NCBI GenBank assembly: GCA_030149525.1
Contig: JASBRJ010000308.1
Location: 1-44,226 of the forward strand
DNA length: 44,226 nt
Direction of reading: 5' to 3'
From: a bacterium
GTDB taxonomy: Bacteria > Vulcanimicrobiota > Xenobia > Xenobiales > JADMJV01
The position numbers were made by a program, and so were the translations under genes. The notes below the pieces were generated by a model. It made no database searches and was not told the DNA's origin. It saw nothing but the letters and a program-made list of their open reading frames with translations. Positions 1-38,375 of this stretch are shown here, piece by piece; positions within the stretch are counted from its first letter, which is position 1, and each line of letters begins with the position of its first letter.

Positions 1-235
1 CGCTTCCGGTAGCCGCAGCACCTGCGTTGAACTGGGCATCGCCCACGCTACCACCGGCGTTGAGAATCACGTCTCCACCCAGAGCCACCGCTGCTGCGGT
101 GTTGGCTCCGTTGTTGTCCACGATGTTGCCGCCCGCTTCCAAGACCACTCGGGTGTTGGAAGTGACCTGGTCGGCGTTACCGTTACCCACGGTGATGTTG
201 CCCGCAGTCTCCAGGTGGGCGTCACCGTTTCGTGC
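1..235 (-). repeat. Near-identical DNA repeat in tpsA, copy 1
   Basis: This segment matches 1409-1645 closely at the DNA level over about 230 bp, including third codon positions, at an offset of 1408 bp. Its first ~100 bp also match 2279-2385. It probably continues beyond the left edge. The similarity is much higher than between average repeat units, suggesting recent duplication or gene conversion. Confidence 0.8.
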
Positions 236-12200: not shown

Positions 12201-12256
12201 CCCGCAAGCACGGGCTTTGCAAACTTATCTTTAAAAGAGACTAGTCTTTTTGGCAT
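1..12256 (-). CDS. Giant TpsA-type exoprotein / filamentous haemagglutinin-like adhesin (C-terminus outside window)
   Basis: Large secreted exoprotein of a two-partner secretion (type Vb) system, expected to be exported through the outer membrane by the TpsB encoded just upstream. The ATG at 12256 follows a strong Shine-Dalgarno. The frame stays open to base 2, giving at least 4085 residues; the C-terminus is not seen. Residues 1-33 are a Sec signal peptide ending in AQA. About 34-280 is the TPS/haemagglutination-activity domain, with the hallmark NPNGI at 116-120 in the context NGNVFIINPNGI. A GGFIDTSG motif near 350 and GTWLIDP near 376-382 resemble HMW1/FHA-type adhesins. The rest is Gly/Asn/Asp/Thr/Val-rich beta-helix-like sequence. 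In the half nearest the left edge it becomes a regular ~146-residue repeat array. Adhesin is the likeliest role; a contact-dependent-inhibition toxin cannot be excluded because the C-terminus is missing. Confidence 0.93.
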   Translation of the reverse strand, partial: MPKRLVSFKDKFAKPVLAGALLSSFFGMGVAQANPSGGTVRAGDVNIRNVGPNTLHIEQMTQKAIIDWQKFGIGHGESVRFLQPNQLSAILNRVTGQDPTHILGNMSANGNVFIINPNGILFGPSAVVNVGGLVASTLNISNDDFLNGNFRFTQDQNKALASVVNQGSITITDGGYAVLMAPLVSNEGLIVANLGKVNLMSGESATLNFDGRNLINYNIGHMDTANPGTVVVDRQTVSQLLANVIQDPNLTEAGGLIENADGTVSLVGAAETVLNNGTIRANGTGGKDAGKVVLDSGRLTVVGPEAVIEASGQGEASNGGEIIALSHGTMKLSQGATVEAKGSILGGDGGFIDTSGYGRIILEDYADASASNGDAGTWLIDPEFLAIVSGGGGQLDGDTNVSVADGGQSSSISENFLEGLSGTTNVQLTAGTQITINDLADNQLLLNDNVSLTLTTNTGDILFADPNDSIRVGGTGSLTLDSGRDLYLGTVISAGTGTISLAVDRNIYDGNGAAANVVGDILSFDARDGDVLVSANSTYPSAGSPAGGLDISGFSQSNPRVLNLTTDNSSDITLDIVGGANGQPAVAGSLTVQDIGSTVRVASSDLRTASPSTGTGVGTTVNITDQSNVELNGLQAATVSVNSSGNINGGAAATDLSADSATLVGDQIGNSSTLNTSVTTLDVQGRNNNSQINFTTAGTTGLTVRSNNSRVNIDGNDVTVANANLESALEALDPNFDRPPGVTNAFSTFDFNNAAINLTFIESQNRTFEMDGVTANSFSLQTGGSILDTLTAGQQIQADTISLSAGERIGTFTYNKDGVTPATAIEPITVNNTAGTGGAVSLSVQAGGPVNIVHAQDPNTNFVQFASDDVATPPAEANLLNVQDSAGDSFSSLSFTRSNAGDIVVGQLGSAANPLSSASLQTTNGSILNSTVVFDENDTNIFSQTLNMVALGGSVGTAGDPIEVDVREITGRGDNGFFVTSAGELEVFGLTTDGSADAFIGAANGSLTFTAAGNVITSTAITDTNGEQNTDGYDVAMDITLTTGDLNVDGISIDGNGGVNDAANGRALVKLTAQNGSIISDGGTDITVGADTDVQLTATGGVGTRAARLGVVSTTNSPGELSVDAGNNVGLNVTAGDFDSATVKHNNADVLMTGTSGVIDTAGPGLDITGTGNVSTINYENRTAGNTVDSVVANGTNINIKVAGNLTEDGDAAADITANGGDVSVNATGNLVVDATSGMGGTVDLQSVGGNATVDAVGFLQLDDTNAGTSVTGNLTLNVPGGVITNIGSLTAGGTAAFNLGGGAQVTQFPNDAAVDLKAGSLTITSTGAMSQVLLDTDVDSIAINDQAVGAGSGVYDLDNIDGLNSVTVQSRNTAFDIITNNNGGNVAYDGTNLSTATAGMDVGTFSLTEVAGDINVNTTTLNNSRMTDVNITTTGSDIVGGGVLTTLGNATFTSGDDIFNLLTDVDKTLTLIAVDEISFTDTNSNGPSNLIVRVQNGSDVSGSWDAGQSTMTFDSGTDRLLITDNGMANTNVTFETQTGDISLDYADVGDCAAGDSNTLTLIASDNAAGNITDEGDPGTTSFPRGGNANIDLAGENVILLAHGNIGTAGDNLETEVCDTITARSDTGGVFLTETSTIEHLIIDVDNSDYSLTFDEFGPGGNVTVSYAVDATTVGVNDLTFSKSASGTDFTLIERNTGRTVDIKSDIDVSGGADGTDDEFVRIISGGSITNTSGSTITAKNADLITQTGSMGSAANPIFMSVEDICVSANGLDTSGFIQNTSPIRNLFLSVNQGNATAGGDVTVLWDQDGVAAGFQAGGVRIANNRLDTVSDLIGTAGTVDEAQVYVVNGAFTLDGTFNTDPNGNNDTFARQNNTLAAGSGGNVEIGTYTAVSAGPDPFNLSPLLEVQARGDDGGILMATGGAGIDLTNGGTNTEQGTITLVAEGTNIGTNAAPIQVISQAGANMTRVNAYTENQGATAGEGDIFINATNDVEYRQVVSGTDLSFVAPFHDNGGAGFVPGGVTPPTLATPGTAPPTPPREGDVVLTGTGEICATDIRAGANSNVNITSTGAGDILIGTVAATNGTVTVENQNGNIDEKNDDTNGNVFAKEFVGITRNGRIGNTSAVKADALREALDLVVLESSIYVGRDNTGAGEALGAVTGTGGNVYLRNIGNIIYNDVEVENSAGNGEVYLVSEGVTTAGSVIVGETTDVSALIETRNGSGMLVGNVQAKGNRAALKSADFIRADAKNLSDANFASQGRVQADEVLLLSNGAIGTTSAPINLFASSAGGTTIFAASTNNGTPVAQGDINIRGGSAIFATDLRVGSVTETICLFTETGVVDANNVCIDVENGDLDIDNDITRINGNIFLEASSDVFIGAEINNDASNNADVGIEATTGNIVQDNGAVTVTSDDDLALKAGGTIGVGGTGALRIDVDNGLAAQSGGDLNLDSRGTGTVQVQNNVPLKTGNVDGITSGGALDVVTAGELEVGATITATNDICLDVGGILDVNQNVTSITGNVALESDGNMELGNGSTGVVRSGSGQTISVISGGNVVDNNDTANNLDSQGGTVVMSVQDRIGLDGENGTANDIEVTTANLAAQAGLNGGNNDDINIRDIDNAGLTLVSRTITNKAGGMVTVTGVTGNRDICIDVTGGNINIDESIVATDDVALRTSTGNITVGAGKVVSAGDDVSVEITTGNLVDSNGAGAVAINAGDSLILSVGGNVTGDGTGTVAGSTNMFEFNADVLAAQSTGAGSMDLLDRDANLTIANRSTRKGGVAVDGVSLAGDFCLELTGNLDVDDDVTSTNGNVAILASGNITVGDNAGGTNAANTESISANNGTVSLEAGGSINDDNNTSNGGPASVSANVTVLEANGIGAASDDLSLATTTLAAQGGTGSVFVQDTTGSLTIGSVNTLKGNDTITGVDADDDVCIEVVQGSLVLDEAVNAGEGTAAGNSFVALKARDDINFNNENNRVTADDKVSLESTTGGITNILSDGTVDLQTRNANGQVVISVDDAVASAAAPLQIQTDLFAARTTNAASNGVFVDDLTGNLTVTQLTLEKGGGNITGVQTAGSVCLDVVAGGGNLIVDRAVRGGNEVFLSAEGDIVNSIAVGENIEATGATGRVILDAGDEITDDTDGNGEIVGNTVVLDSVNGIGDEAGTVDVEVQAANLAAVSRTAGDVNLDENGAGLTNVVAANYTDKDGGAQTVTGITAATDICLDTTGALTVNESIVSGTAAGGTGVVEIRASGTVTVGDGDVNVEQIRTTDANQSVIIETTSGDIVDSNGNGNAAVVALGGDVILNAAGSVGDAQFNAGAAATGSAFEIDTDDLAARAGTGDINIVDLDSNSDGLDIEALSYTNKAGGTTNVNGVTAGQDICLDVVNGNLDVNQVVTATNGSVALKTRTGDINLNGADVTAATANQTVSVESADDINDTVDGTGSIVATNVVLDAVNGIGDNVTAGDDDLEVRAANLAAISRTSGDVNIEVTNPAGTDVTIAQLSTLKDGDTVTGVDAAGAVCIDVADNLQVSESVTARNGQAYLDATGNITVGNGNADQVTSNTRVVLEAGGNIVDNNGANTAAAVALGGDVILNAGGSVGDAQFNPMAAATGSPVEIDADDLAARAGTGDVNVVDIDSNSDGLDIEALSYTNKAGGTTNVNGVTAGQDICLDVVNDALDVNVAVTATNGSIAMRTRDTDNDSDGNINLNAVDVTAGAAGQTISLEAADQITDSNVAAGSLIADNVVLLADTGIGNASAINLDATNVAAQTLTSGSIDLRDGSLSNTNAGFVSSNLFTLKTGTRVDGINSNDICIDVTGDLVVDRNIVSRGDVAIRTTGNIQLGDTVGVDRGVIVAGTGADNAVGGGDDVTGTVSVEATGNITDGNGNSTTDGDGDGFADGANIIALGGTGVSGGNVVLRAGGGVGSDATGGAEDAIEIDTLVAAAVAGTGDVNLSEQDIVTNDGLTIGQVTTIKGLTTVVGLDGATEVCVDVAAGDLRVNENVTARNGDAHLETAGNITVGNGNADQVTSNTRVVLEAGGNIVDNNGANTAAAVALGGDVILNAGGSVGDAQFNAGAAATGS
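1222..1645 (-). repeat. Near-identical DNA repeat in tpsA, copy 2
   Basis: Bases 1222-1515 match 2092-2385 with few differences at an offset of 870 bp (290 codons, two protein repeats). Bases 1409-1645 match 1-235. The segment covers one cysteine motif (1238) and the beta-strand stretch that follows. Confidence 0.8.
2092..2385 (-). repeat. Near-identical DNA repeat in tpsA, copy 3
   Basis: About 290 bp similar to 1222-1515. It contains the cysteine motif at 2108 and the same downstream codons as copies 1 and 2. Similarity falls off on both sides. Confidence 0.75.
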
Positions 12257-12260
12257 TTAT

Positions 12261-12270
12261 CTTCTCCCCT
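12261..12270 (-). promoter_or_regulatory. Ribosome binding site of tpsA
   Basis: On the minus strand this reads AGGGGAGAAG, four bases before the ATG at 12256. It overlaps the tpsB stop codon (12269-12271), so the two genes are tightly linked and probably translationally coupled. Confidence 0.8.
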
Positions 12271-13819
12271 AGAAGGTCTTACTGAAGGTTAGGTAGGTTA
12301 CCGGGTCTTTTCCGACCCGACGAGTGATGGCGTTGCTCCCTAAAGCCCAGCCGACGTCGGCACGAATGAACGTGTCCTGCGGAAGATTGAGACGAACGCC
12401 AACTCCGGCGCCTGTGAGCGCGACATTAGGGATCTCTCCCGGAGCCGGTTGCTTAAGATAAGCAGTGCCGTGGTCGATAAAGGCGGCCAACTGAAGAAGA
12501 TTATGATCTTCTCCATCGATGGGCTGCCAGCGAAGCTCTGCACTGGCATTGAAGCCGGCGTCCCCAAGGTAGGCAGCCTGAGTATAGCCTCGCACCGAGT
12601 CTATTCCGCCCAGAGCGAATTGCTCGGCGGTTGGAAGAATGCGTGTTGCATATTGATGACTCACGCGACCGATGGCGAACCAGTTCTTGTTGAAAGAGTG
12701 AATGCGAGCCAGGTCCAGATTCCATTTGTGAAAGCCGCCGCCGGCCTGACGACTCGAAAGCGGGTCGTTGGCGTTCATGCCTCCGAAGCCGGTCCCCAGA
12801 TCCTGGGTCATCCGAGCGTTAAAGTAGTTGCGTCCGTGCTTGTCGGCCCAGTCGGTAGAAACTCCGAGAACCAGCTCACGAAGGTGGTCACGCGAGATGG
12901 TCTGGTCAAGAATCAGGTCTTCGATGTTCTGATAAAGGAAACCGCCGGTGAAATCCAGGTTCCAGTCAGGCGTGCGAACGACCGGGTGATTGATAAAGAG
13001 ACCGGCAACGATGGCCTCGCCTCGAATATCCAGAATCTCCAGTTCGCGGCCCACGCCATAAGCAGCATTGGAGAGCAAGAGGCTAGCTTTGGTACCGCTG
13101 TTGGAAATGGGGACAGAGTAGGTGAGATTTCCGAGAGTGACACCTTTTGATGCCAAACTGCGGAGACCACGCAAGGTCAGCCTGTCTCCATTACCAGACA
13201 GGTTTCCGAAGTCCAGGGTTGCGCCGATTCGATCCCTTCCAGTGAAGCGCGAACCGAAGTTATTGTAGTCCACGCTGAAGTGGGTTGGATTCTCATCCAC
13301 TACGTCAAGGGTAAGATCCACCGTATTAGCTTCATCGGACGCCTCCACGATGGAGGAGACCTCTAAATCCGGGAACTCATTCAGCAAGAGGAGTTGACGC
13401 TGAACCACATCCCTCTCGGGAAACTCTTGGGCTCTTACAGGCTCCAGCCACCAATCGAGAAATTCCGTGCTGTAATACTCGTTGCCCTGAACGGTCACCT
13501 TGCCAAGCTTACTCTCGACGATCTTGAAACGGACCACTCCGTCACTGATGTCCTGCGTGGGAAGCGCCGCGCGAATGGTAAAATAACCCTCTTTACGATA
13601 GAGGTCGGTGAGCCGGTCGGCGGCCCCCTTAAGCTGGTCGAAAGTAAGGCTTTGCCCCTTCAGATCCGACAGTGCGCCTTGCAGCGCTTCTTGTGAGAGA
13701 CGAGTATTACCCTCGATCTCAAATTCTTCAACAGTAACCTGCCCCTGAGCAAAACAAACTCCGGCAAGAAAAAGCGACAGCAGAAGCGTCCCCACGCTCC
13801 GTTGCAACCCACTCCCCAT
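12269..13819 (-). CDS. TpsB/FhaC-family outer-membrane transporter
   Basis: Outer-membrane beta-barrel that recognises the TPS domain of its partner in the periplasm and exports it. The 516-residue protein starts with a signal peptide (about 1-25, cut after CFAQ or nearby). POTRA domain 1 spans about 27-101 (opening VTVEEFEIEGNTRL) and POTRA 2 about 103-176. A beta-barrel follows from about 177 to the terminal Phe516, as usual for Omp85-superfamily proteins. The lid-loop signature VRGY is at 409-412, followed by LGDAG. I chose the ATG at 13819 over a GTG at 13831 because an AAGGTGG Shine-Dalgarno (13828-13834) overlaps the GTG. The gene ends 12 bp before tpsA, so tpsB-tpsA form one operon. 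Length is near the usual 550-580 residues, slightly short. Confidence 0.93.
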   Translation of the reverse strand: MGSGLQRSVGTLLLSLFLAGVCFAQGQVTVEEFEIEGNTRLSQEALQGALSDLKGQSLTFDQLKGAADRLTDLYRKEGYFTIRAALPTQDISDGVVRFKIVESKLGKVTVQGNEYYSTEFLDWWLEPVRAQEFPERDVVQRQLLLLNEFPDLEVSSIVEASDEANTVDLTLDVVDENPTHFSVDYNNFGSRFTGRDRIGATLDFGNLSGNGDRLTLRGLRSLASKGVTLGNLTYSVPISNSGTKASLLLSNAAYGVGRELEILDIRGEAIVAGLFINHPVVRTPDWNLDFTGGFLYQNIEDLILDQTISRDHLRELVLGVSTDWADKHGRNYFNARMTQDLGTGFGGMNANDPLSSRQAGGGFHKWNLDLARIHSFNKNWFAIGRVSHQYATRILPTAEQFALGGIDSVRGYTQAAYLGDAGFNASAELRWQPIDGEDHNLLQLAAFIDHGTAYLKQPAPGEIPNVALTGAGVGVRLNLPQDTFIRADVGWALGSNAITRRVGKDPVTYLTFSKTF

Positions 13820-13827
13820 TCTTATAT

Positions 13828-13834
13828 CCACCTT
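13828..13834 (-). promoter_or_regulatory. Ribosome binding site of tpsB
   Basis: AAGGTGG on the minus strand, 8 bases upstream of the ATG at 13819. It decides the start codon, because the alternative GTG at 13831 lies within it. Confidence 0.65.
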
Positions 13835-22724: not shown

Positions 22725-23290
22725 GGACTCTTCCTCATCTTTCTTTGCCTGATTAACCTACTTATGTCGTGGGCTCTTTCTTCCTTGGAGCGACCGGGAA
22801 GAGGTTGAGGACCGTCCGGTCCGCAAGCCATGGTGATCTGATAGCGCTCTATTTCGAACCCCTGACGCAGAGCCGCCAAAAGAGCCCTCTCGTTGCTGGC
22901 CGTGACGCGGGCCGTCATAAATTTATAGCCGCGTCGATGGCTCAACCGGGCGGCCTCGGCGACCAGAATTCGGTCCACTCGTTTTCCCAGATAATCTGGA
23001 CTCACGGCCATGTTGTAGAGCAAGGTTTGTTTTTCACCCGTCGTCTCTTCCACGTTGCGAAATTCGAGAACGAGAAAGCCCACCCTTCGCTCACCGTCAT
23101 GGGCCACCAGGATGGCGTAATCCCGCTTGCGGTTGAGCATGATATCGAGGTCGCCCATCCGTTCGGCGGCAACCTGACGCACCGTTTCATTGGAGATATC
23201 CCGCCCGGCCGAGATCCCTTGATCCACGGTCTCCAAGGTTAACTGTTTAATAAACGGGAGATCGTCTTTTTGGGCTCTCCTGACGTTCAA
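22721..23290 (-). CDS. GNAT-family N-acetyltransferase
   Basis: 189-residue acetyl-CoA-dependent acetyltransferase; substrate unknown. The N-terminus VRRAQKDDLPFIKQLTLET is the usual beta1-alpha1 of GNAT proteins. RRVGFLVLEF gives strands 3-4, and MAVSPDYLGKRVDRILVAEA is motif A with a modified acetyl-CoA loop (canonical Q/RxxGxG/A reads LGKRVD). VTASNERALLAALRQGFEIE is the motif B region. The C-terminal ~25 residues are basic (RQRKMRKSP). It overlaps its neighbours by 4 bp at both ends, so it is the middle gene of a coupled operon. Confidence 0.87.
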   Translation of the reverse strand: MNVRRAQKDDLPFIKQLTLETVDQGISAGRDISNETVRQVAAERMGDLDIMLNRKRDYAILVAHDGERRVGFLVLEFRNVEETTGEKQTLLYNMAVSPDYLGKRVDRILVAEAARLSHRRGYKFMTARVTASNERALLAALRQGFEIERYQITMACGPDGPQPLPGRSKEERAHDISRLIRQRKMRKSP

Positions 23291-24612
23291 AGGCTCTTTC
23301 CTAGGTGTAGCTTTAATTTCAAGGCTTCCGCTCGAAGTTTCATAAACCCTGGCGTCGGCCCGGAAACCAACTGGTGCAGCAATCTCCCGGCCAGACTCAC
23401 CTGCCCCAGCTCCAGATAGACTTCGGCTAATTCCAACTTCAGAGCTGCTGTTTCCAAACGATCGGGAGCAAACTTAATGGCCCTACGATAAGACTTTGCC
23501 GCATCTTCCCGGCGCTTGAGAGCAACCTCCGCTCGTGCAATAAGATAGGTAATCTCGGAATCGCGTCGACTCAGGTCAAGGGCGAGAGTGAGGGTCTGAA
23601 GGGCCTCTTGAGGTCGTTGGGCTTCCAGCAGAGCTCTCCCGCAAAGAGTTCGAAGATAAACCTCGGTTCGGGTATCCAAACGTTCTTCTGAGAGCAACTC
23701 CTCCCATCGGTCCGCCGCTTGGGAGAATCTCCCGCTCCGAAAGAAGAGCATCCCTTTGATGAATCTGGATTCGGTGGGATTGACAACGGTCGACAAAAGC
23801 TTTTCCGCCTCCTCAAACCGACTCCGCATCATCGCGCCACAGACCCTATCGATAGGCTGAACCGAATAGGCCGGGTCCAGCTCGACAGCTTCCTCCAAGC
23901 GGCCCTCAAGCGCAAGCCTTGCCGCTCTTGTCCAGCAAGGCCAATCAGGCTTCGATTGAGGCGGCGACTGGGACAATCCTTCCCACATCTCGCGCCCCAC
24001 TGGAGGATCGCTCAGGCACAGCTCCATAAGAGGGCCAAGATAGCGATGCTCAGGGGGTGTGTAGCCACCCAGCAAAGAGTAGGCGATAGTGATGGCGGCG
24101 GGAGAGACCCCCGCAGTGTGCTCTGCAAGGGTGGCCGGGGATTGCCAGATCTCATCGGTAGGGCTCAAAAAGTAGTCTACATCGATGTCCAGCAAGACCG
24201 GGCCTTGCAGATCCGGAATGTCCTCGGAGAAACAGATTACGAAGGGCTTGCCCAGGAGCGTCCCTTCCACTCGCCTTCCCACTTGCTTCAGGCTCATGTA
24301 ATCGGAGAGTTTGAGATGTAGCCAGTTCTGAAGCTCGGTATAACTCCACCCGAGAAGCTCCTCACCACCCGGCAAATGGTTCGGAATAACCCAGACTAGG
24401 GAGGAAACAATACCCTCGCGGATGGCCGGCAGGAGAAAGTTCCCGCAATGGATCTCCGGGGAGTAGACCAATTCGTTAGCTGGAGCCTTCAGATCACTGA
24501 CATCCAAATGGGCGTCTATGTGAAGACAAGGCAACCCTTCAAGGCCCAGTTCCTTCCAAAAGAAGTAGGCTTCGCGATGATCTTCCATGAGACGAGTCGG
24601 CACAGTTTTCAT
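23287..24612 (-). CDS. UPF0489-type protein fused to TPR repeats
   Basis: 441 residues. The N-terminal ~230 residues match the UPF0489 pattern: DHREAYFFWKELGL, CLHIDAHLDVSD (D33, H35, D37) and LDIDVDYF (D142, D144, D146). These two motifs look like the DAHxD and DxD metal ligands of arginase/deacetylase-fold enzymes, so a metal-dependent hydrolase is plausible. The remaining residues (about 255-435) are TPR-like helix pairs (AADRWEELL, EVYLRTLCGRALLEAQRP, ALTLALDLSRRD, AAKSYRRAIKFAP). The ATG at 24612 is preferred because the upstream TTG at 24639 lies inside a terminator hairpin. First gene of an operon with GNAT and the zinc-ribbon protein. Confidence 0.8.
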   Translation of the reverse strand: MKTVPTRLMEDHREAYFFWKELGLEGLPCLHIDAHLDVSDLKAPANELVYSPEIHCGNFLLPAIREGIVSSLVWVIPNHLPGGEELLGWSYTELQNWLHLKLSDYMSLKQVGRRVEGTLLGKPFVICFSEDIPDLQGPVLLDIDVDYFLSPTDEIWQSPATLAEHTAGVSPAAITIAYSLLGGYTPPEHRYLGPLMELCLSDPPVGREMWEGLSQSPPQSKPDWPCWTRAARLALEGRLEEAVELDPAYSVQPIDRVCGAMMRSRFEEAEKLLSTVVNPTESRFIKGMLFFRSGRFSQAADRWEELLSEERLDTRTEVYLRTLCGRALLEAQRPQEALQTLTLALDLSRRDSEITYLIARAEVALKRREDAAKSYRRAIKFAPDRLETAALKLELAEVYLELGQVSLAGRLLHQLVSGPTPGFMKLRAEALKLKLHLGKSL

Positions 24613-24619
24613 GACATGC

Positions 24620-24656
24620 AAAAAGCCTCTCGACACCAACCGGCGTCGAGGGCTTT
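24620..24656 (-). terminator. Rho-independent terminator of the glycine-zipper gene
   Basis: Minus-strand hairpin in which AGCC/GGCT and CTCGAC/GTCGAG pair around an AACC loop, with one bulge and one mismatch, followed by TTTTT. It lies just after the stop at 24682 and just before the ATG at 24612. Confidence 0.8.
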
Positions 24657-26150: not shown

Positions 26151-29100
26151 TTAGTGGAGACTTTGCTCAAGCCTCTCGGCCACCTTGATCAGAAATTCAT
26201 CCTCATGCTTGTCGGTCAACTCCTCGCTAGCGATATTGACCAAACCCACCCAGGCCAGCAAGATCAGCAAGCGAGCCTCTCGATGACGAGCGTTGCCTTT
26301 GGTGGGAGTATCGACCAGCCAACGAACAGCCGGATGAAGTCGATTGAATCGATGCTGACCCGAGGTAGGGGATCGGTAGACCGCCGGACCCAGAGGCCAT
26401 GATCCAAAACTTGTGGCCGCAAAGAACGCCTCGGCCTTGTTTGCCACCCGCCGCCCTAAAAGCTGGTTCAGATCGGAATGGAAACGGCGCAGCAACTGAT
26501 TTTCCAAATCCTTTCGAGTAGGTGGCCCTTTATCTTCTTCTTTGTCCTTGCTCTTGTTTCTCTGCCGACGACTTTTTTCAAGAAAATTTTCCTCCTGAGC
26601 CTGCTGTTCCTGACGCCTCAAAGTCAACATCTCCACAAAGTCATCGACCTTATTCTGAGCCACCTTGAATGGGGTCAGACCCCAGGCTACCAATTGCCTT
26701 GCCGAATCGACGATTCGCTCCGTGTCGACGAGAGGTGGGCGTTCAAACTCCAGCAGATTCTTAGCTCCCAAAACCGCTCGGAGAACCTTATGGCCTTCGG
26801 AATCAGTGTCTAGGATCAAGACATCTGCAGGGGCCCTGAAAGAACTTTCGGCCATCAAGATAGGCGCTTGCTCTTCGGTGAACTTGAGCGCCAGTGCGCT
26901 GCCGCTCATCCAGGTTCCATCAGCTCGCAAGAACAGGGGAAGGTCCCACAGGACCTGGGCGAGCTTGCCTCCCGGGGAATTCGAACAGCTGGTGATGAAG
27001 CGACTCACCCGATTTAAAACAGAAAGGGCGCGTTCTCGCTCAGCGGAACCGAGCGACTCATGACAGAGGCCTTCTACCCATTCGAGATAGAGAGCGTAGG
27101 TCCACTGCTCCACAACCTCTCGGGCCGGGCGAGGGAATTCCGGAGCAGGATCGGTGTACTGCTGGCTGCTGTGGGCAGCGGGCTCCAGGCCGAAGATGTT
27201 CCCCGAAACGGGCAATCCATGCCAGTCAATAAAACCGAGAACATTCTCCTGAGCGTCAAAACCCAGCAGACGGCTCTTATCATCAACAGCGAGAAGACCT
27301 TTCAGGGTCTTTGACTCAAACGACCTCGCCTTGAGGTGATCGGCCAGCTTGGTGTCGAGGGAGTTGAGGAACTTTTCTCGTTGAGACTCAACATGAAGAG
27401 TCCTCTGCATATCGTTTAAGCGCGCCCTGGATCCGGCCAACTTCAGTAAGAACTTGATATCGGAGGACTTTTCAAAAACGATCATGCGGTTCGTCTTGAC
27501 TCGAACCGAGAAGTCCGGCTCCACAAAGGGGACGGATTTAGAATGTTTCTTTAACACCTCTTCCATGGAGACCACTCCTCCACCGTAGAGCCGAACAATG
27601 GGACTCTTGAGAATCTCGTCTTTGGGAAGCGTATTATGAGAAAGTTGTTGCATCCATGCGAAGGCCCAGGAGGCCACCGCGCGATTCTCGTGACTGAGAA
27701 GCGGGACCGCCTCCCGGGCGCAAAGACCCTTCAACTCACTCACTAGAGACGCTTTCACATTCACCTCTTTGAAATCTCTAGAAAGGGTGATGTCTTCGTG
27801 TTCGATGGCGATAAAGCAATCTCGAGGAAGAATATTCTTTTTTGTTTCTGCCAGACGACCGTCGATGTAGCAAAAGAGAGAGCCTCCTCCGTCACCGGAA
27901 TGCTCAAGAGAGCGAAACCCCAACTCTCCTCGACCGATCGTGAGGGGAACTTTATGGGTAAACTCACCGGGCAATTCGATCTTGTCCACCACGTTCTTGC
28001 CCAGAAAAGCCTTTCGACGCTTCTCTTCTGCCATGTAAAGATCTGCCCGACGAGTCGTCCAGCGATTCCCAAAAAATTTCTGCAAAAGTTCCAGCTCTTG
28101 ATTGTCCGGTGTCAACAGCACCGGTCTTGAGGCCGAAATCCACTGATCAAGGCAAAGAACATGTCCGTGCTCGTCCAGCTCTTTCCGGAGTTCTCTCAGG
28201 CTCAATCTCCTTGTTTCGTGAACGGTTGAAAACCAGGGTTCGGACTCAAACTCCGAGACAAGATCGAGATGAGAGGATAGCAATGTCAGGCGAATAGCTC
28301 TGTCGAACGACTTATCTTTCAGCATGGAGAGTTCCAGCTCTCTGAAGCGCTCATTGACCAACTCTAGAAGTTTCGCATAATCCGAAGCACCGGTTTTCAT
28401 CCCCGACCAGTCGGACTTGGGTTGAAGAGAACCGGCTGAAAGGACGGCCACACCCTCAAAAGTGAAATCAGAGGAATGCTTTTTCTTTTCTAAGGTCACC
28501 CCCTGATGGATGAGATGGAGCATAAAATGTGACTCTCTCTTCTCCCGAAAGCCAACCTCCAGGAAAACATTGTCCTTCTGGTAGACCTGTCTGGCTAGAA
28601 AAGAGACTCCTTCCAGTCTTTCCAAGGAGAGGGGAGGCGGATCCAAGAGCTGGGCGTCGATCTCCTGAAACCTTTCGAAATCCGCGGAAGACAGTTCGAC
28701 AACATTGGCTTTCCCCAGCCGTTTTTTCAACCCGGAAACATTGCCTCGCGTGGTCCAGATGAGAGGGTGAGGCAGAATCTGGAGCGGAAAATTCTCCGAC
28801 TTGGGACGGAACGGCTTCCCTATGAAAACCTTACCGCCGGCGGCCAGCTGCTCTAAGCTATAAACCTCCTTTCCCATACTCTCGGCAAAGAGAGGCGTCT
28901 CAAGATCCACCCGAGACAGAGACTTTGTGGGACCGGAAATCCGTTCCAAAATGAAATGACGCATGGCCGGGTCTACATCGCCTTTAGGGAAAGGCGCAAG
29001 CTTATCGAACAGCTCCCGCAGCTTCTTGTTGAGCGAACTGATTGCGGAGCGATAGAGCCTCCCCGTCCCACGTGACCACAGCTCATCAATCTCCAACTCG

Positions 29101-30398
29101 TCGAAGTTGATAACAGCGACGGAACCGGGGGGCGCCAGATGAGTCAGGTTGTCCGCTGCCAGAAGATGATTCTGGTAGAGAACATCGACCTTAGGCTCCA
29201 CCGAGGAGCTCTTGAGGATACCGATCTCGGCTTGCCATTTCGAGTCTTCGAGCTTCTCCCTCAGGTGGTATTCTCCCGGAGGGAGTTCGGTGGATCTCGG
29301 ACTGCTCTGCCAGCGGGCTTTGTTCTGTTCAGCCTGTAGCTTTCTTCGATAGGCCGGCCCTGCGTCGATCAGCACCTCGGGCGCGAAAATTTGACCCAAA
29401 ACCTCGGCAGTGTTGCCCCCTTCTAGAAGCACGACCGGCCTATCCAGTCTCAGGTTAAACCGCTTTTGAGAGGTGAGGATCTCAAGAGTCTTCTTACTTG
29501 TTCCGACCGTCATATCGTGGAGCGAGCAGTATTCGTCGCGGTCGGCAAGAGGGAAAATCTTCGCATTCTTGAGAGCCGAGGCGGCGGGCTCACTGGAAAT
29601 TTCTGCAGCATACCGGCGAAGAGGTGCGAACATTTCCGGCGAGGGGTCCGACGCCGCTTCGGCCAAGCGCTGAAGAGCGAGTTTTTGGGCTCGCGCCAGA
29701 GCCTCGGAATAGATCTTATCTTGAACCACATGGGAGTAGGAAGCGTCCAACTTGAAGGCGGGACTTTCTAAAACGGCGGAATAAGTGGGCATGGTTTTGA
29801 CCGCCTGAGTTTCCACTACCACGCCGAAACGAACCAGGGTCAGTCTCGTCCAAAGCCCTGAAGCCAAATCGACTTGGGTGCCCGAAACAGGCTTTTGAGG
29901 CAGTTCTTCACCGTTGAGAAACACCTCGCCGGCACTGTATCGAACTCTGCTGCGCAGAGCCTCATCCAAACCTTCGATAATCTGTTGAGACTGAAAGCGA
30001 AAGATGGTCTCGCCGCTCTGAAGCTGTTCCAGAACCGGCGGCTCCACGCACTCGTTCTCCACCGAATTGAAGGCGACACCGAGAAGATGATAAGGCAACG
30101 AATCGGAGTCGGTAGCGAACACTTCCTCCCGGCAACTTTGCAAGCGCGTCTCTTGGAGACGCGCTCCGAAAGCACAGAGGCGGACTCTCTGTCCCTTCGG
30201 CTTGTGCTCGGACATCAACGTGATCTCAAGTCGCGTGCAACCGGCGCTATTGAGGGCCTGAATAGCCAGAAGAACAGCCTCTTCCATAGAGGAGAGCTGA
30301 AAGGAGGCCATCTTCTTCTGAGCTCGCTTTTCATCGAGAGTGAACTCGCCGTCTTCGGTATATTTGCTTCCCTCACGAAAACGCTCCAGCAGACTCAT
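26151..30398 (-). CDS. 1415-residue partner of the GHKL ATPase: degenerate GHKL copy plus repeated modules
   Basis: The N-terminal ~350 residues align by eye with the neighbouring ATPase: SSMEEAVLLAIQALNSAG against PMSFLRELVQNSLDAG, HKPKGQ against HDKPSGQ, and RFGVVVETQ...LESPAFKL against NRGLTLLEG...VRSPYLEH. The catalytic Glu and Mg-binding Asn are replaced by Leu44 and Ala48, and the DNGEGM motif is gone, so this copy should not hydrolyse ATP. The rest contains five copies of a ~65-residue module, starting near 281, 501, 722, 932 and 1152, with pattern [IL]PLF..dG..Sl.el...(P)...vil....e..ll...lg. Between some copies lie beta-rich segments near 374, 609 and 809. A charged Lys/Glu/Arg/Gln linker is at 1262-1295. 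No membrane segments. The ATG at 30398 overlaps the ATPase stop by 4 bp. Confidence 0.78.
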   Translation of the reverse strand: MSLLERFREGSKYTEDGEFTLDEKRAQKKMASFQLSSMEEAVLLAIQALNSAGCTRLEITLMSEHKPKGQRVRLCAFGARLQETRLQSCREEVFATDSDSLPYHLLGVAFNSVENECVEPPVLEQLQSGETIFRFQSQQIIEGLDEALRSRVRYSAGEVFLNGEELPQKPVSGTQVDLASGLWTRLTLVRFGVVVETQAVKTMPTYSAVLESPAFKLDASYSHVVQDKIYSEALARAQKLALQRLAEAASDPSPEMFAPLRRYAAEISSEPAASALKNAKIFPLADRDEYCSLHDMTVGTSKKTLEILTSQKRFNLRLDRPVVLLEGGNTAEVLGQIFAPEVLIDAGPAYRRKLQAEQNKARWQSSPRSTELPPGEYHLREKLEDSKWQAEIGILKSSSVEPKVDVLYQNHLLAADNLTHLAPPGSVAVINFDELEIDELWSRGTGRLYRSAISSLNKKLRELFDKLAPFPKGDVDPAMRHFILERISGPTKSLSRVDLETPLFAESMGKEVYSLEQLAAGGKVFIGKPFRPKSENFPLQILPHPLIWTTRGNVSGLKKRLGKANVVELSSADFERFQEIDAQLLDPPPLSLERLEGVSFLARQVYQKDNVFLEVGFREKRESHFMLHLIHQGVTLEKKKHSSDFTFEGVAVLSAGSLQPKSDWSGMKTGASDYAKLLELVNERFRELELSMLKDKSFDRAIRLTLLSSHLDLVSEFESEPWFSTVHETRRLSLRELRKELDEHGHVLCLDQWISASRPVLLTPDNQELELLQKFFGNRWTTRRADLYMAEEKRRKAFLGKNVVDKIELPGEFTHKVPLTIGRGELGFRSLEHSGDGGGSLFCYIDGRLAETKKNILPRDCFIAIEHEDITLSRDFKEVNVKASLVSELKGLCAREAVPLLSHENRAVASWAFAWMQQLSHNTLPKDEILKSPIVRLYGGGVVSMEEVLKKHSKSVPFVEPDFSVRVKTNRMIVFEKSSDIKFLLKLAGSRARLNDMQRTLHVESQREKFLNSLDTKLADHLKARSFESKTLKGLLAVDDKSRLLGFDAQENVLGFIDWHGLPVSGNIFGLEPAAHSSQQYTDPAPEFPRPAREVVEQWTYALYLEWVEGLCHESLGSAERERALSVLNRVSRFITSCSNSPGGKLAQVLWDLPLFLRADGTWMSGSALALKFTEEQAPILMAESSFRAPADVLILDTDSEGHKVLRAVLGAKNLLEFERPPLVDTERIVDSARQLVAWGLTPFKVAQNKVDDFVEMLTLRRQEQQAQEENFLEKSRRQRNKSKDKEEDKGPPTRKDLENQLLRRFHSDLNQLLGRRVANKAEAFFAATSFGSWPLGPAVYRSPTSGQHRFNRLHPAVRWLVDTPTKGNARHREARLLILLAWVGLVNIASEELTDKHEDEFLIKVAERLEQSLH

Positions 30399-31918
30399 GA
30401 AACCTCACTCCTCTCACGAATCCGAGAAAGTGAGTCTGTAAGAATCTTGCTCTCTCCCTTGAGTCCGAGCCCCAGATCGAGATTCAATTTTCTCACCAGC
30501 AAGCCCAGTGCAAGCTCCGGCTGAACCTGGGCAAGCCTAATCACCTTCTGAAACAAAAGATGATCCCGAACCAGCCCGAGAGCATCACCGGATTGCTGCT
30601 CAGAATCGCCGATTCGCCTGGCTTGCTGAGACGGATTCAAATAGAGCCCCAGGGGTTGCAAATCGCCGCTCCCGGGAATCTTTGTGCGCAGTTCGATCAA
30701 AAAAGTGCTACTGAAGTGACGCGCCCTCTCGGCAAGAAGGTCGAGAAGAGCCTGCTCGGAAACGCTCGCGGCAACTTTCTCATAAACAAAAAAACGGTCG
30801 GTCAAAGGGACGCACAGGCGCCCAAGGCCAGTCAGGAACTGGAGGACAGGGGAGCCCCAGTCGACCCTCAACACCGGCTCTCCCAGGGCCTCGACAGCTT
30901 CTACCAACTCATCATTTTGAGGATGCCAGGCCACAACGGCCGGCAACTCGACCGGGGCCACTTTCCCCTCACCGGTGGGGATGATCGCCCTCTTTTGAGC
31001 AAGCTTCGAAGTGATGGGATAGTTGAGAGCACGAACGGCGGCCTCCCAAAGACTGGGGTCGTCTCCCGCTTCCAATCGTGAAAAAATATCGTCGGGCATA
31101 CTCTCGGTACGGGCCTTTTCAATCTGGCTCATGACCTTACGAAAGTTCTTGTCCCTAAGAATGTTATCCCGGCTCAAGGTGTGTTCGAGATAAGGAGACC
31201 TTACCCGGAACTTCAGATGGGGGATGGGAGACCCAGGCCCTTCCAGAAGGGTGAGTCCTCGATTGTAAAAGCCTTGGAAACCCGACGATTGAGAGTCTGG
31301 GGCGAGAACCGCTTCCGTGCTCTCGGTCTTGAGATGGTAGGTGTAAGGTTCCTCCTGAAAACCGAATGTCTCGTTAATCCTCTCACCGTTGAAAGCGATG
31401 TCCGTATGGGAGTATTTGCACCAGTAAGTGACCGTCTCGCGAGCGTCTTCTATCAGCTGACCGAGGTCTCTTCGCTTAAGAGGGAGATAGAGGGTCACCG
31501 AGGTTCCTTCCACAGGCTCCATGAGCTGCCGCTTTTCGTAAGTCCGGTCCGGTTTGAAGAGAATTCTCCAAAACTCACCCTCACGACCGGTTTCCAGAAC
31601 CACGAGATCGGGTTTCACGGCAAAGATGGAGACGAACCCGATGCCGAATTTTCCTATCTTCGTCAGGTCGTTCTCCTTGGTGGAGCTAAAAAGGCGCGTC
31701 AGCCGATTGTCGATGATCTCCTCGGTCATGCCCTCGCCGTTGTCTTTCACCTGAATGTAGCACTGGCCCGAAGGTTTATCGTGTCCCACATTCACTTCCA
31801 CCAGGGTCGTCCCAGCGTCCAGACTGTTTTGGACCAACTCTCTCAGAAACGACATGGGCTGGGCAAACTGCTGAATCAGTTGCTCCAGGGCATCCTTGGC
31901 TGAATTCTTTCTCGACAT
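30395..31918 (-). CDS. HSP90-type GHKL ATPase
   Basis: 507 residues. The N-terminal ~200 residues carry a Bergerat-fold ATP site of HSP90/HATPase_c_3 type: N-box RELVQNSLDAG (catalytic-type E27, N31, D34), G1 DNGEGM (59-64), and G2 GKFGIGF (89-95). A middle region (about 170-280) includes NRGLTLLEGP and LSRDNILRDKNFRKV, similar to the middle segment of HSP90/HtpG. After that comes one copy of the module repeated in its partner (RAIIPTGEGKVAPVELPAVV). It lacks the HSP90 C-terminal dimer part. I chose the ATG at 31918 because similarity starts there; the frame is open to 32128 but that part overlaps the divergent gene. First gene of an operon with the 1415-residue protein. Confidence 0.88.
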   Translation of the reverse strand: MSRKNSAKDALEQLIQQFAQPMSFLRELVQNSLDAGTTLVEVNVGHDKPSGQCYIQVKDNGEGMTEEIIDNRLTRLFSSTKENDLTKIGKFGIGFVSIFAVKPDLVVLETGREGEFWRILFKPDRTYEKRQLMEPVEGTSVTLYLPLKRRDLGQLIEDARETVTYWCKYSHTDIAFNGERINETFGFQEEPYTYHLKTESTEAVLAPDSQSSGFQGFYNRGLTLLEGPGSPIPHLKFRVRSPYLEHTLSRDNILRDKNFRKVMSQIEKARTESMPDDIFSRLEAGDDPSLWEAAVRALNYPITSKLAQKRAIIPTGEGKVAPVELPAVVAWHPQNDELVEAVEALGEPVLRVDWGSPVLQFLTGLGRLCVPLTDRFFVYEKVAASVSEQALLDLLAERARHFSSTFLIELRTKIPGSGDLQPLGLYLNPSQQARRIGDSEQQSGDALGLVRDHLLFQKVIRLAQVQPELALGLLVRKLNLDLGLGLKGESKILTDSLSRIRERSEVS

Positions 31919-33699: not shown

Positions 33700-35520
33700 A
33701 TGGATTCTTCAGAAGATAAAAAAGTACGCATTGGCGACATTCTTGACGAAATGCGGGCCGGTGAAATCCCACAGAAGACCTCTAAGACCGAGGATGCCAA
33801 CATTGACCAACTCCTCGACGAGATCAGTGTCGGCCAACTCACGAAGTCAAGCTCCGAGCTCAAAATACATATGGAGTTCCTCCATAAGATTGAAGAGCTC
33901 TATCGGGGTCTCTTCGAGAAGTCTTTTCTTCGGCAAACAACTCTCGGAAGCGAGTTGAAGTACGGTTTTGGCCAGGCCATGGGGGCCAAACTTGTCAATT
34001 GGGCCTGGGACGCTCTTGAGCCCAGGTTTGAAGCCGACTCTCATCTTCAGTCACCGCTCCTGGAAATGCGAGTTCCCGCCAAACTGCACCGCCGCTACAG
34101 CGAGCTTCTGGCGGTCATCGGCCCACGTTTCTTTAAAGAAACGGGCGTTGAGCTTCCCCAACCTCTGCTCTTGGAGTCGGAAGAACCTCGCCTTTTTATC
34201 GGCGGGAAAGAGGTCGCCGAACTTCCGGCTCTGGAGATTCAATTGAGGAATCCTCAGGTCCTAGATCACAGGTTACGACTCCACGCCTGGCGCTTTCTGA
34301 CCATCGAAGCTTGCTTGACCATGCTCCGGAAACTTTGGAACCGCCGCCCCGGTCTCCATCAGGTCTTTCTTGAATCAAGGCTTCAGGAAATCGACATCTT
34401 TCAAATCTGCCGAAGACTTCTTCAGTGGGGTTATCCTATTCTCTATTTCGACGCCGTGGTGGAATGCAGCCTTCTAGAGGTTGCCGAGGGAGGGTATGAG
34501 GGCATTTATGGTCGTGCCCGTTCTGTTGCCATGGAGTTTATGGGCGAGAAGTTTTTGAACAGCGGGAGTATCCGCAAAGAGTATCACCGCAAAAATCCCC
34601 CGGCTCTCGAAGCCCTCGGCACGGTCAGTCTATTCGAACTCCGCTGCTGCAAGACGCTTAGAGAGCTATGGGAAACCGGTTCACGACCTTCGTCGGAAAG
34701 TTTCCAAGAGCGACTTCGCTCCGAAATCGCTGCCGAGGATGGGTGGGTCCCGCCCCGAATCGACCGCTCCTATCTGTCCAGCGAGGAGCGAGAAGTCTTC
34801 TGCAACGGTCGCTATCGCGTTCTGATACGAGGCGAGGTCGTTGAAGACGGCACTATCAACCTACAAGACGAGAACCTGGACCCGGCCCGAGAGCTCCATC
34901 TCGCCCTGAAACGTTTGACAAAAAGATATGCCCATCGACTTCTCTCCTATAACGCTCTGGGTCATCTGCTCAAGTTTCTGGGCAAACAAGACCCCTCTTT
35001 ACTCGCCTATTTTGAGGGAGACAGCGCCCTGGTCTCTAAACTTCACCGAGTCATGATCTGCCTTCTGGAGGAAGGCGTTTCGCTGAGAGACCGGGCCACG
35101 ATTTTGGAGACCGTGGTGGAATTCCAGCACAGTTCTCCCGAAGACATCGTGGAGATTGTACGAGAGAGAATGCCCGCTTTTGTCTGCCGTGATCTGCTGG
35201 ATGAGAACGGCCATGTTGCCCTCTCTCAACTGGACGCCGAGCTCGAAATGACCTTAAGCGAATCTCTGCGGCCAGGTCGAACGGGGGAAGCGAGACTCGC
35301 TCTCACTGAAGAATTGAATCAGAAGCTTCTAAAGGCCGTGAGTGAAGCCTCCAAAGGCTTCCTAGAAGACGGCTTAACCCCAAGCTTTCTCACCACACCG
35401 GAACTCCGCAGACCACTCTTTAACTACTTCAGACATCTTGACCCGCGACCGGCCTTTCTCACTGCTGAAAATATTCCGAGAAGGATGTTCCCCTCTCAGT
35501 CTCCGAAGCGCGCGCTATGA
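33700..35520 (+). CDS. Soluble homologue of the FlhA/SctV cytosolic domain (no membrane domain)
   Basis: 606 residues, no transmembrane segment. Residues ~305-595 match the export-gate C-terminal domain of FlhA/SctV: EDGWVPPRIDRSYL with RYRVLIRGEVVEDG corresponds to GF-VPPVRIRDN and YRI-LRGVEVA. KRYAHRLLSYNALGHLLKFL corresponds to the HAHELLGRQEV helix. LHRVMICLLEEGVSLRDRAT followed by ILETVVEF is the hallmark FlhA segment. FLTTPELRRPLFNYFRHLDP then AFLTAENIP is the family's ending. Residues ~120-180 may be a second, divergent copy of the first subdomain (ETGVELPQPLL, RLFIGGKEVAELP). The N-terminal ~50 residues are acidic and polar. A good AAGGAG ribosome site precedes the ATG at 33700. It overlaps pta by 4 bp. 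No other export apparatus gene is nearby, so function in secretion is uncertain. Confidence 0.82.
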   Translation: MDSSEDKKVRIGDILDEMRAGEIPQKTSKTEDANIDQLLDEISVGQLTKSSSELKIHMEFLHKIEELYRGLFEKSFLRQTTLGSELKYGFGQAMGAKLVNWAWDALEPRFEADSHLQSPLLEMRVPAKLHRRYSELLAVIGPRFFKETGVELPQPLLLESEEPRLFIGGKEVAELPALEIQLRNPQVLDHRLRLHAWRFLTIEACLTMLRKLWNRRPGLHQVFLESRLQEIDIFQICRRLLQWGYPILYFDAVVECSLLEVAEGGYEGIYGRARSVAMEFMGEKFLNSGSIRKEYHRKNPPALEALGTVSLFELRCCKTLRELWETGSRPSSESFQERLRSEIAAEDGWVPPRIDRSYLSSEEREVFCNGRYRVLIRGEVVEDGTINLQDENLDPARELHLALKRLTKRYAHRLLSYNALGHLLKFLGKQDPSLLAYFEGDSALVSKLHRVMICLLEEGVSLRDRATILETVVEFQHSSPEDIVEIVRERMPAFVCRDLLDENGHVALSQLDAELEMTLSESLRPGRTGEARLALTEELNQKLLKAVSEASKGFLEDGLTPSFLTTPELRRPLFNYFRHLDPRPAFLTAENIPRRMFPSQSPKRAL

Positions 35521-36497: not shown

Positions 36498-38375
36498 ATG
36501 TCGCCGGCAAAAATCATTTCAGTACTGCTGGCTCTTGCCGTTCTTCTGGCAGGGGCCGACTGTGAAGTTCTTCACGAGGCCCCGGCAGCAACTCCGCCCA
36601 CTCCGGTGACTGTCCGCTCGGCTCCCGTCGCTCTTTTTCGAAGCGAGGCCACCCGAGAAACTCAAGGCTGGCGTTGGGACTGGGAATGGAGCGGTGCCAA
36701 GCACTGCCTGGATCTTCTGGGGGTTGAGTACGAAGTCGTTTCCCCTGAAGGCTTGAAAAACTGGAGCGGTAAGATTCTCATCTTGCCCAACATCAGGAAC
36801 ATGAGCGCCGATACGGTGGCACAGATCGAGAGGTCGAGGGCCAAAGTGCTGGCCACTTACATGACCTCTTACCGCAACGAGGTCAACGAACCGTGGCCCT
36901 CCAACAACTTTGCACTGGGGAAACTGCTTGGGGTCACTTTTCAGTCCTGGGTTGGCGGTGGAGAAGCGGCCGGCTCCGTACGGTTAGAGAAAAGTCTGGG
37001 AGGCCGCGAGGTGACGCTCGGGCGGGGTCTTGCCATGATGGTGAAGCCTTCGGAGAAAGCAACTATCCTCGGACGCTGGCCCGGCGGTGAGCCCGCTATC
37101 GTAAAATCGGAGCGAGGTCTTTTCATCGGGGAAGACATCTTCTGCCCGGAGAATAGCGACAGTCGACCGGTCCTTGAGGTGGTGGCAACACTTCTGAATC
37201 AACTTGAGCCGGGGCTTGCCAAAATGCCCTCGAGATTAACCTTCTCCGAGCTTCCCGTGCCGCCCACCGAGCGCGTTCAAGCCGGCGGCCGAAGAGTGCG
37301 CGTTGGCCTGGGCACTCTGGAGGGAGAGACTCTCCTAAGAGCCCCCAAAAAACTCACCGTCAACGGCAAGACCGGCCCCAACTTCTACCGCTGGACGAAG
37401 GGGCGTGATATCGAGATTAAAGGCGAGCCCTATCTTGAGGTCATGAGACTGCGCAAGAACGGAACCTACCGCTGGAACGCCTACCGGGGCTCTCTCCGTA
37501 TATCCGCCGAAGGACAGACCGTCAACACCCTCGATTTCGAGGAGTATCTGGCAGGAGTGGTCCCCGGCGAAGTCCCCCTGACATTTCCCAGTGAATCTCT
37601 CAAAGCGATGGCCGTGGTGGCTCGCACCTACGGCTCGACTCACCTGAATCGTCACCACGACTTCGATGTCTGCGACACCGTCCACTGTCAGGTCTACGGC
37701 GGTCTGGGCAAGGAATCGGAAAGCACTAACCTGGCGGTGAGAGCCACCTCCGGCGAGGTTCTCACTTTTCACGGGGGGCCCGTCAACGCTCTGTTTCACG
37801 CAGTCTGCGGCGGAACCACCGCCGCCTCGGCGGAAGCCTGGCCGGGCGGAGGAGGCACACCCTATTTAGCCAGTGTGGACGACGGCAAGTTCTGCTCCCA
37901 TTCCGGACGGTATCGCTGGAAAGAGGAGTACACCAGGGATGAGTTGGCCGATCACTTCCGGGAAGCTCTGGACCGCACCCGCGGTTCGCATTTTTACGGA
38001 CTCTCCAAGTTAACGCGACTCAAAATCGAAGAGAAAAGCCAGAGCGGCCGGGTGAAAATTCTAAGCATAGAGTCCCCCGAGGGTGTCTACCGAGTCGAGG
38101 GCGACGCCATTCGCTGGCTCTTCAGCGGCGGCCGAATCAGTACCGCCGGACTGCAGAGCACCCTCTTCGAGTTGGAAGAGAAGGGCGACCGCTATATCGT
38201 GAAAGGCGGTGGATGGGGCCACGGCGTGGGAATGTGTCAGCAAGGGGCCTCCGGACGCGCCCAGGCAGGCCAGAACTACCACGAGATCCTGGAGCACTAC
38301 TATCCGCAGACAGCCGTCACTGCAAGCGGACCGAAAGAGCAGGGCAAGAGAACTGCTGAAAAGCGCGACTCCTGA
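36498..38375 (+). CDS. Exported SpoIID/LytB-domain protein
   Basis: 625 residues with an N-terminal signal peptide (about 1-22). A central part (60-240) of mixed alpha/beta pattern resembles a glutamine-amidotransferase or ThuA-like fold (KILILPNIRNMSADTVAQIE, ERGLFIGEDIFC). The SpoIID/LytB domain spans about 345-605: DFEEYLAGVVPGEVP with the likely catalytic E358, LKAMAVVARTYG, the cysteine motif CDTVHCQVYGG (C392, C397), HAVCGG, and GGGWGHGVGMCQQGASG. SpoIID enzymes are lytic transglycosylases acting on stem-peptide-free glycan; LytB proteins modulate amidases. The ATG at 36498 has no strong ribosome site in view. The intergenic gap to pta is 66 bp, so this gene may be co-transcribed. Confidence 0.88.
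   Translation: MSPAKIISVLLALAVLLAGADCEVLHEAPAATPPTPVTVRSAPVALFRSEATRETQGWRWDWEWSGAKHCLDLLGVEYEVVSPEGLKNWSGKILILPNIRNMSADTVAQIERSRAKVLATYMTSYRNEVNEPWPSNNFALGKLLGVTFQSWVGGGEAAGSVRLEKSLGGREVTLGRGLAMMVKPSEKATILGRWPGGEPAIVKSERGLFIGEDIFCPENSDSRPVLEVVATLLNQLEPGLAKMPSRLTFSELPVPPTERVQAGGRRVRVGLGTLEGETLLRAPKKLTVNGKTGPNFYRWTKGRDIEIKGEPYLEVMRLRKNGTYRWNAYRGSLRISAEGQTVNTLDFEEYLAGVVPGEVPLTFPSESLKAMAVVARTYGSTHLNRHHDFDVCDTVHCQVYGGLGKESESTNLAVRATSGEVLTFHGGPVNALFHAVCGGTTAASAEAWPGGGGTPYLASVDDGKFCSHSGRYRWKEEYTRDELADHFREALDRTRGSHFYGLSKLTRLKIEEKSQSGRVKILSIESPEGVYRVEGDAIRWLFSGGRISTAGLQSTLFELEEKGDRYIVKGGGWGHGVGMCQQGASGRAQAGQNYHEILEHYYPQTAVTASGPKEQGKRTAEKRDS

Follow-up and report, generated by a model that had tools for sequence, protein, structure and literature searches.

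A linked gene pair in large-genome bacteria as candidate halves of an asymmetric Hsp90-like chaperone

Hsp90 chaperones are dimers joined through their C-terminal (C) domains; ATP drives closure of the two N-terminal (N) domains upon each other, and clients are contacted by the middle (M) domains. Both the mechanism of asymmetric ATP hydrolysis by Hsp90 and the reason for it are still being investigated, with engineered heterodimers as tools. Here we analyze two overlapping genes, encoding proteins P0001 and P0002, in a 44,226-nucleotide contig of a Vulcanimicrobiota bacterium (JASBRJ010000308.1; the whole contig is referred to as the window). The pair probably encodes a heteromeric Hsp90-like chaperone with two unlike parts, an ATP-driven arm and a long, ATP-dead client-binding arm. 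The closest counterpart known to us is an Hsp90 heterodimer engineered to contain a dead protomer. Such one-dead-arm heterodimers are attributed to Mishra & Bolon 2014 where that work is cited in PMC11687934, and engineered TRAP1 heterodimers form and close even when one protomer is unable to hydrolyse ATP (Elnatan 2017, PMC5550277). The pair resembles them in combining one predicted ATP-competent and one catalytically dead chain. However, the engineered forms are laboratory mutants of the same protein, whereas in the pair the asymmetry is encoded by the genes themselves and the dead arm has been remodelled. HtpG, TRAP1 and other Hsp90s differ in that they are homodimers, in which the chain is active and has a single middle domain; our pair consists of two genes, and the ATP-dead chain carries five such domains.

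Another giant with repeated Hsp90-like modules is sacsin, a eukaryotic protein of 4579 amino acids (aa), whose Pfam and NCBIfam models are matched by P0001 (see below). It repeats N together with M, and Glu, Asn and Arg are kept in all three repeats (PMC9880540). The first-pass annotation of the window, made from the sequence alone, had called sacsin a loose parallel, and loose it is, since sacsin is the product of a single gene with intact repeated N+M units, whereas P0002 contains one dead N domain and repeats only M. The UBL, J and HEPN domains of sacsin were not found by Pfam in P0001, P0002 or 36 relatives of P0002. Open-access literature on bacterial sacsin-like proteins, inactive or pseudo-Hsp90, GHKL pseudo-ATPases and tandem middle domains contained no description of the pair, which is weak evidence of absence, and a two-gene, half-active Hsp90-like machine looks to be previously undescribed.

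The source genome (8.27 Mb, 398 contigs) encodes five members of the family, four of them paired, as well as an ordinary HtpG. The previously annotated coordinates and overlap of the 507-aa and 1415-aa genes are correct, the stop and start codons sharing an ATGA (30398-30395). The pair comprises:

30395..31918, minus strand: P0001, 507-aa Hsp90-like protein with N, M and C domains, predicted to be ATP-competent (Pfam, hhalign to HtpG, AF2/Foldseek)
26151..30398, minus strand: P0002, 1415-aa giant paralogue of P0001 with a dead head (hhalign, hidden Markov model (HMM), AF2)
30395..30398, minus strand: ATGA overlap of the P0002 start and the P0001 stop, with the same −4 spacing in many relatives

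Relatives were collected by searching GTDB contigs with the P0001 family alignment, which returned at least 385 of them; 80 loci were kept. An initial GTDB scan with P0002 as a single query did not retrieve any relatives, and those analyzed here (hereafter partners) were found with the P0001 family alignment.

P0001 matches HATPase_c_3 (1.4e-13) and SACS (4e-9) of Pfam, as well as the sacsin-like N domain NF047352 (1.4e-13) and part of the HSP90-family models of NCBIfam. The first of these matches agrees with the N-box, G1 and G2 motifs recognized earlier by eye. Because the curated Pfam family HSP90 (PF00183) was not matched at E≤1, P0001 is classed by sequence as a divergent relative of Hsp90 and not as a member of that family. 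The relationship extends over the entire chain: an 80-sequence family profile aligned with a 17-sequence HtpG alignment over residues 18-498 (hhalign, 493 columns, E=1.7e-20). The AlphaFold2 (AF2) model (predicted local distance difference test, pLDDT, 86; predicted template modelling score, pTM, 0.79) retrieved full-length TRAP1/Hsp90 in Foldseek (E=1.9e-21), the 50 best matches all being of Hsp90 type. On the basis of the full-length profile alignment and the modelled fold, P0001 is a divergent N-M-C relative of Hsp90 and more than a GHKL domain. It shares GHKL motif similarity with MutL and topoisomerase VI B over residues 20-106, but, in contrast to these proteins, its homology runs on through the M and C domains of Hsp90. 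The following regions were distinguished:

31469..31918, minus strand: N domain with GHKL fold, residues ~1-150, with Glu27, Asn31, Asp59, Gly61/63 and GKFGIGF, invariant in 79-80 active relatives
30779..31432, minus strand: single middle-domain-like module, residues ~163-380, with Arg250 (residue table, hhalign, HMM)
30398..30763, minus strand: C-terminal domain, residues ~386-507, with motif LVLNxxHP (full-length hhalign to HtpG; secondary structure)

Glu27, Asn31, Asp59, Gly61, Gly63, Gly92 and Arg250 are universal in the 79-80 active relatives, and the G89-G94 stretch is likewise invariant. P0001 thereby has the catalytic Glu, Mg Asn, adenine Asp and GxxGxG lid that characterize the GHKL N domain of Hsp90/HtpG, as well as the middle-domain Arg that contacts the gamma-phosphate. 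Arg250, present in 80/80 of the actives, belongs to a family motif (LEHTLTRDNV) that aligns on the arginine of NVSRE(IL) in the HtpG middle domain; we take it to be the equivalent of Arg380 of Hsp90 and of the HtpG NVSRE arginine. The LVLNxxHP motif aligns on LEINxxHP of the HtpG C-terminal domain. Support for this last domain is modest and comes mainly from the full-length alignment, the domain alone giving a weak E=0.002 against HtpG.

The first-pass annotation had also proposed, from an alignment by eye, that the N-terminus of P0002 is an inactive copy of P0001. Profiles were needed here, because plain BLASTP between the two proteins was not significant (best piece, E=0.3; N-box/G1 stretch, P0001 residues 29-115, E=1.6). 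With profiles, the N-terminal family of P0002 (34-329) aligned with the P0001 family (17-356) at 99.3 % and E=2.9e-20, with a score of 226 against at most 23.5 in 40 column-shuffled controls. The P0002 N domain alone gave E=2e-9 against the active family, the P0002 head profile gave E=6.7e-10 against HtpG, and an HMM trained solely on partners recognized the active ATPases, at scores reaching 67 bits. A GHKL fold of this N-terminus is further supported by an AlphaFold model of residues 1-1200, for which the top 50 PDB matches in Foldseek were only Hsp90/TRAP1 (E=4e-10).

In P0002 the catalytic Glu27 is replaced by Leu44, Asn31 by Ala48 and Arg250 by Tyr221, and DNGEGM is lost; the first two replacements and the motif loss are exactly as previously read. 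None of 69 partners retains Asn31 or Asp59 (0/69 each), Gly92 and Arg250 are each kept in 2/69, and Glu27 is still present in 40/69. The family-wide losses are those of Asn31, Asp59, Gly92 and Arg250, and P0002 itself has lost Glu27 as well. With L44, A48, A76 and Y221, P0002 does not have the ATP-competent N domain of Hsp90/HtpG. Positions of the fold (Gln17, Leu28, Phe77, Gly221 and Asp256) are largely kept in the partners. Homology together with residue loss upholds the proposed pair of active and inactive paralogues.

What had been overlooked is the remainder of P0002: residues ~145-1284 consist of five middle domains in tandem, and the C-terminal ends of the two proteins are probably also related. 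P0002 is divided as follows:

29967..30398, minus strand: dead GHKL domain, residues 1-144, with Leu44, Ala48 and Ala76 at catalytic positions (hhalign, residue table)
29256..29966, minus strand: middle-domain copy 1 (145-381), with Tyr221 in place of the catalytic Arg (HMM E=5e-29; hhalign to P0001 9e-13)
28593..29285, minus strand: middle-domain copy 2 (372-602) (HMM E=5e-15; against copy 3 E=1e-24)
27969..28643, minus strand: middle-domain copy 3 (586-810) (HMM E=3e-21; against P0001 8e-9)
27327..28001, minus strand: middle-domain copy 4 (800-1024) (HMM E=1e-12)
26547..27332, minus strand: middle-domain copy 5 (~1023-1284), the most divergent (HMM E=2e-5; against copies 2-4 E~1e-10)
26154..26528, minus strand: probable C-terminal domain, residues ~1291-1415, with FNRLHPAV motif (hhalign of partner against active C-terminal domain)

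Profiles of the P0002 segments match one another with E-values between 1e-24 and 2.6e-6, and against residues 167-376 of P0001 they give 9e-13, 2e-6, 8e-9, 2e-5 and 0.006, with head-versus-module negative controls at 0.1-0.4 % (hhalign). A module HMM, whose training included copies 1-4 of P0002 but neither P0001 nor copy 5, recognized a single module in P0001 (163-413) and five modules in P0002 (the fifth at 1059-1284). The same HMM detected exactly one middle domain in 75/77 actives and between one and seven, usually four or five, in 63 partners. In the AF2 model of residues 1-1200 one strand-helix pattern occurs five times; with a pLDDT of 80 but a pTM of 0.43, the individual domains can be trusted but not the way in which they are placed relative to each other. 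The last ~125 residues of the partners aligned with those of the actives at E=7.9e-6 and 84 %, with a score of 36.9 against an ordinary shuffle maximum of 15.7 (197/200 shuffles); the other 3/200 scored >130 over only 7-17 columns and were taken as hhalign artefacts. Neither P0002 nor the 36 partner relatives match any Pfam family, and no C-terminal enzymatic domain of the partners was indicated by Pfam, PADLOC or meaningful NCBIfam matches. P0002 looks like a whole paralogue of P0001, because it has a dead N domain, five M modules and a probably related C-terminal end. A dead paralogue with a common C-terminal domain could form mixed dimers, and the giant might then be a regulatory decoy that restrains P0001 in inactive pairs and is tethered to a location by its repeats. 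One to seven conserved middle domains would be needless for an inhibitor, and we hold such a role to be very improbable.

A linked pair of active ATPase and dead-headed giant is carried by many large-genome bacteria. The loci belong mainly to Myxococcota (Nannocystis, Plesiocystis, Enhygromyxa, Paraliomyxa and an Archangium metagenome-assembled genome, MAG) and Eremiobacterota/UBP9, with others in Elusimicrobia and one Armatimonadetes MAG. Closer to the source, the family was found in 13/98 relatives searched, nearly all of which have large genomes and share its order or class; six Myxococcota genomes contain 2-5 copies each. Conservation of the pair, which had been named as a check on the original proposal, thus extends to dozens of genomes. 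A dead-headed partner is directly adjacent to 66/81 ATPase genes (63 downstream, 3 upstream), often with a 4-base overlap. The remaining 15 comprise three at contig ends, one (L070) that is joined to its partner across a sequencing gap and makes a 67th adjacent pair, and 11 without an adjacent partner, of which nine form a solo group and two (L079 and L127) have a partner nearby. Trees of actives and partners mirror each other (r=0.75 versus at most 0.145 when permuted), and swapping partners among the paralogous pairs of one genome gave r≤0.49, with 0/2000 reaching the observed value.

The overlapping genes and the mirrored trees, including their paralogue specificity within genomes, indirectly support a P0001/P0002 heterocomplex. 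Were the two proteins co-expressed but independent, P0001 would form Hsp90 homodimers and the giant would serve passively, without ATP, as a holdase or scaffold; solo ATPases and orphan giants would fit this arrangement, as would the homodimers normally formed by the Hsp90 C-terminal domain. The paralogue-specific pairing, the stop/start overlap and the adjacency in 66/81 cases speak against it, and we regard such independence as improbable.

In the heteromeric chaperone that we favour, P0001 would be the motor arm, in which ATP is bound and hydrolysed by a canonical N domain completed by the middle-domain Arg, and which has an Hsp90-type C-terminal domain at its end. P0002 would be a duplicated arm unable to use ATP, its retained N fold serving as a docking surface for the N domain of the motor and its five consecutive middle domains as a long client-binding surface. 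The C-terminal domain of P0002, probably shared with P0001, would provide a dimer joint, constitutive as in Hsp90. Binding of ATP would close the P0001 N domain onto the dead one, clamping the client along the repeated arm, and hydrolysis would reopen the clamp. Given the established biochemistry of Hsp90, a heterodimer of a motor arm and a repeat-lengthened dead arm is the simplest machine. We see an even chance that the pair represents a natural, obligately asymmetric Hsp90 that is widespread in bacteria: only one arm would hydrolyse ATP, while the dead arm would have grown, like a ruler, to a row of 1-7 middle domains that bind clients.

Several observations weigh against this chaperone model. 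The ATPase can probably act alone, because the nine-member solo group lacks a partner; one copy in the source genome (C270) is of that kind. Orphan partner-like proteins also exist (e.g. L050), and in L101, L105 and L132 a single ATPase is accompanied by two or three partners. Strict 1:1 dimers leave such loci unexplained, which suggests that the same motor may work with alternative arms. The weakest point is the C-terminal homology of P0002 (E=7.9e-6 against the actives, E=0.014 directly against HtpG). Finally, a dead protomer impairs reopening in TRAP1 (PMC5550277).

Screening of the surroundings of the pairs revealed no neighbour family common to the loci, although conserved neighbours had been put forward as a further check: families recur in at most 3/77 loci upstream and 4/78 downstream, and none is conserved beyond one subgroup. 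PADLOC families, scanned among upstream neighbours, recur in at most 2/77. Zero matches were obtained in the plasmid search, while phages gave three and viral contigs eleven weak matches, all confined to the GHKL region. Neither recurrent defence neighbours nor mobile elements emerged from the neighbour, upstream PADLOC, plasmid and phage/viral searches. A mobile-element origin was rejected because plasmids were without match and phage matches were weak; the pair behaves as a chromosomal module that is complete in itself.

These data bear on a role in defence or signalling. A sensor-switch function has been proposed for large GHKL defence proteins; here, the repeated arm would sense an invader or damage signal and gate the ATPase as a switch rather than as a folding machine. 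All 56/56 actives scanned match profiles of TmtA (Tiamat), itself a large protein (1300-1780 positions) with an N-terminal GHKL stretch, and a few match MzaB, in the GHKL stretch; repeat number also differs between loci, as it often does in recognition arrays. However, the match of P0001 is limited to TmtA profile positions ~20-155 and ends at residue ~143, P0002 is without match, and 0/36 partners match any TmtA model. The defence context is missing as described above, and large-genome lineages carry several pairs per genome. We consider the sensor-switch unlikely and, judging from sequence, favour proteostasis over defence as the role of the pair.

If the asymmetric chaperone model is true, cultured myxobacteria (Nannocystis, Plesiocystis, Enhygromyxa) would offer a natural system in which one arm is permanently dead, and Hsp90 asymmetry could be tested directly. 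Large conserved proteins without a Pfam family (0/36 partners) would also gain an identity, as a dead Hsp90 head followed by Hsp90 middle domains in tandem.

Further members of the family were noted among the loci. Two or three tandem giant dead-headed paralogues accompany one active ATPase in L105 (2654-11596), L132 (11560-19232), L101, L104 and L116. Short stand-alone proteins (~400-620 aa) starting with a dead GHKL module are encoded in L057 (8201-9550), L058 (2376-4241), L059 (4476-5666), L060 (6198-7502) and L042 (3926-5203); there are several more per genome, some near pairs. A 1640-aa giant (G026 C4; L047 9258-14180) has an N-terminus similar to both P0001 (E=1.5e-5) and P0002, and is a bridging sequence. 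An apparent natural single-chain fusion of 1901 aa (L070/L038, CPR1) was rejected, as a 5-N assembly gap within the ATPase C-terminal domain joins the frames. This scaffold gap (L070 3637-3641) fuses two adjacent CPR1 genes into one call, a warning for automatic annotation.

Among the phage matches, the RIIA lysis inhibitor of a Vibrio phage (PP209424, 171157-171894) is weakly similar to the GHKL/M region of P0001 (24.5 %, E=1e-6), hinting that RIIA may be Hsp90-like. Elsewhere in the window, an open reading frame of at least 4084 aa without Pfam match (1-12256, minus strand) runs off the window start and adjoins a gene for a ShlB/FhaC-type POTRA translocator (12269-13831, minus strand); together they look like a two-partner secretion system with a giant exoprotein. 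A 450-aa protein (23287-24639, minus strand) combines an N-terminus weakly similar to peptide arginase (FlmR/OhkR) with C-terminal TPR repeats. Residues 392-593 of a 606-aa protein (33700-35520, plus strand) match FlhA/FHIPEP (1.6e-29), the usual match to the membrane N-terminus being absent. A SpoIID-domain protein (2.6e-26) is encoded at 36498-38375 on the plus strand of this non-Firmicute genome.

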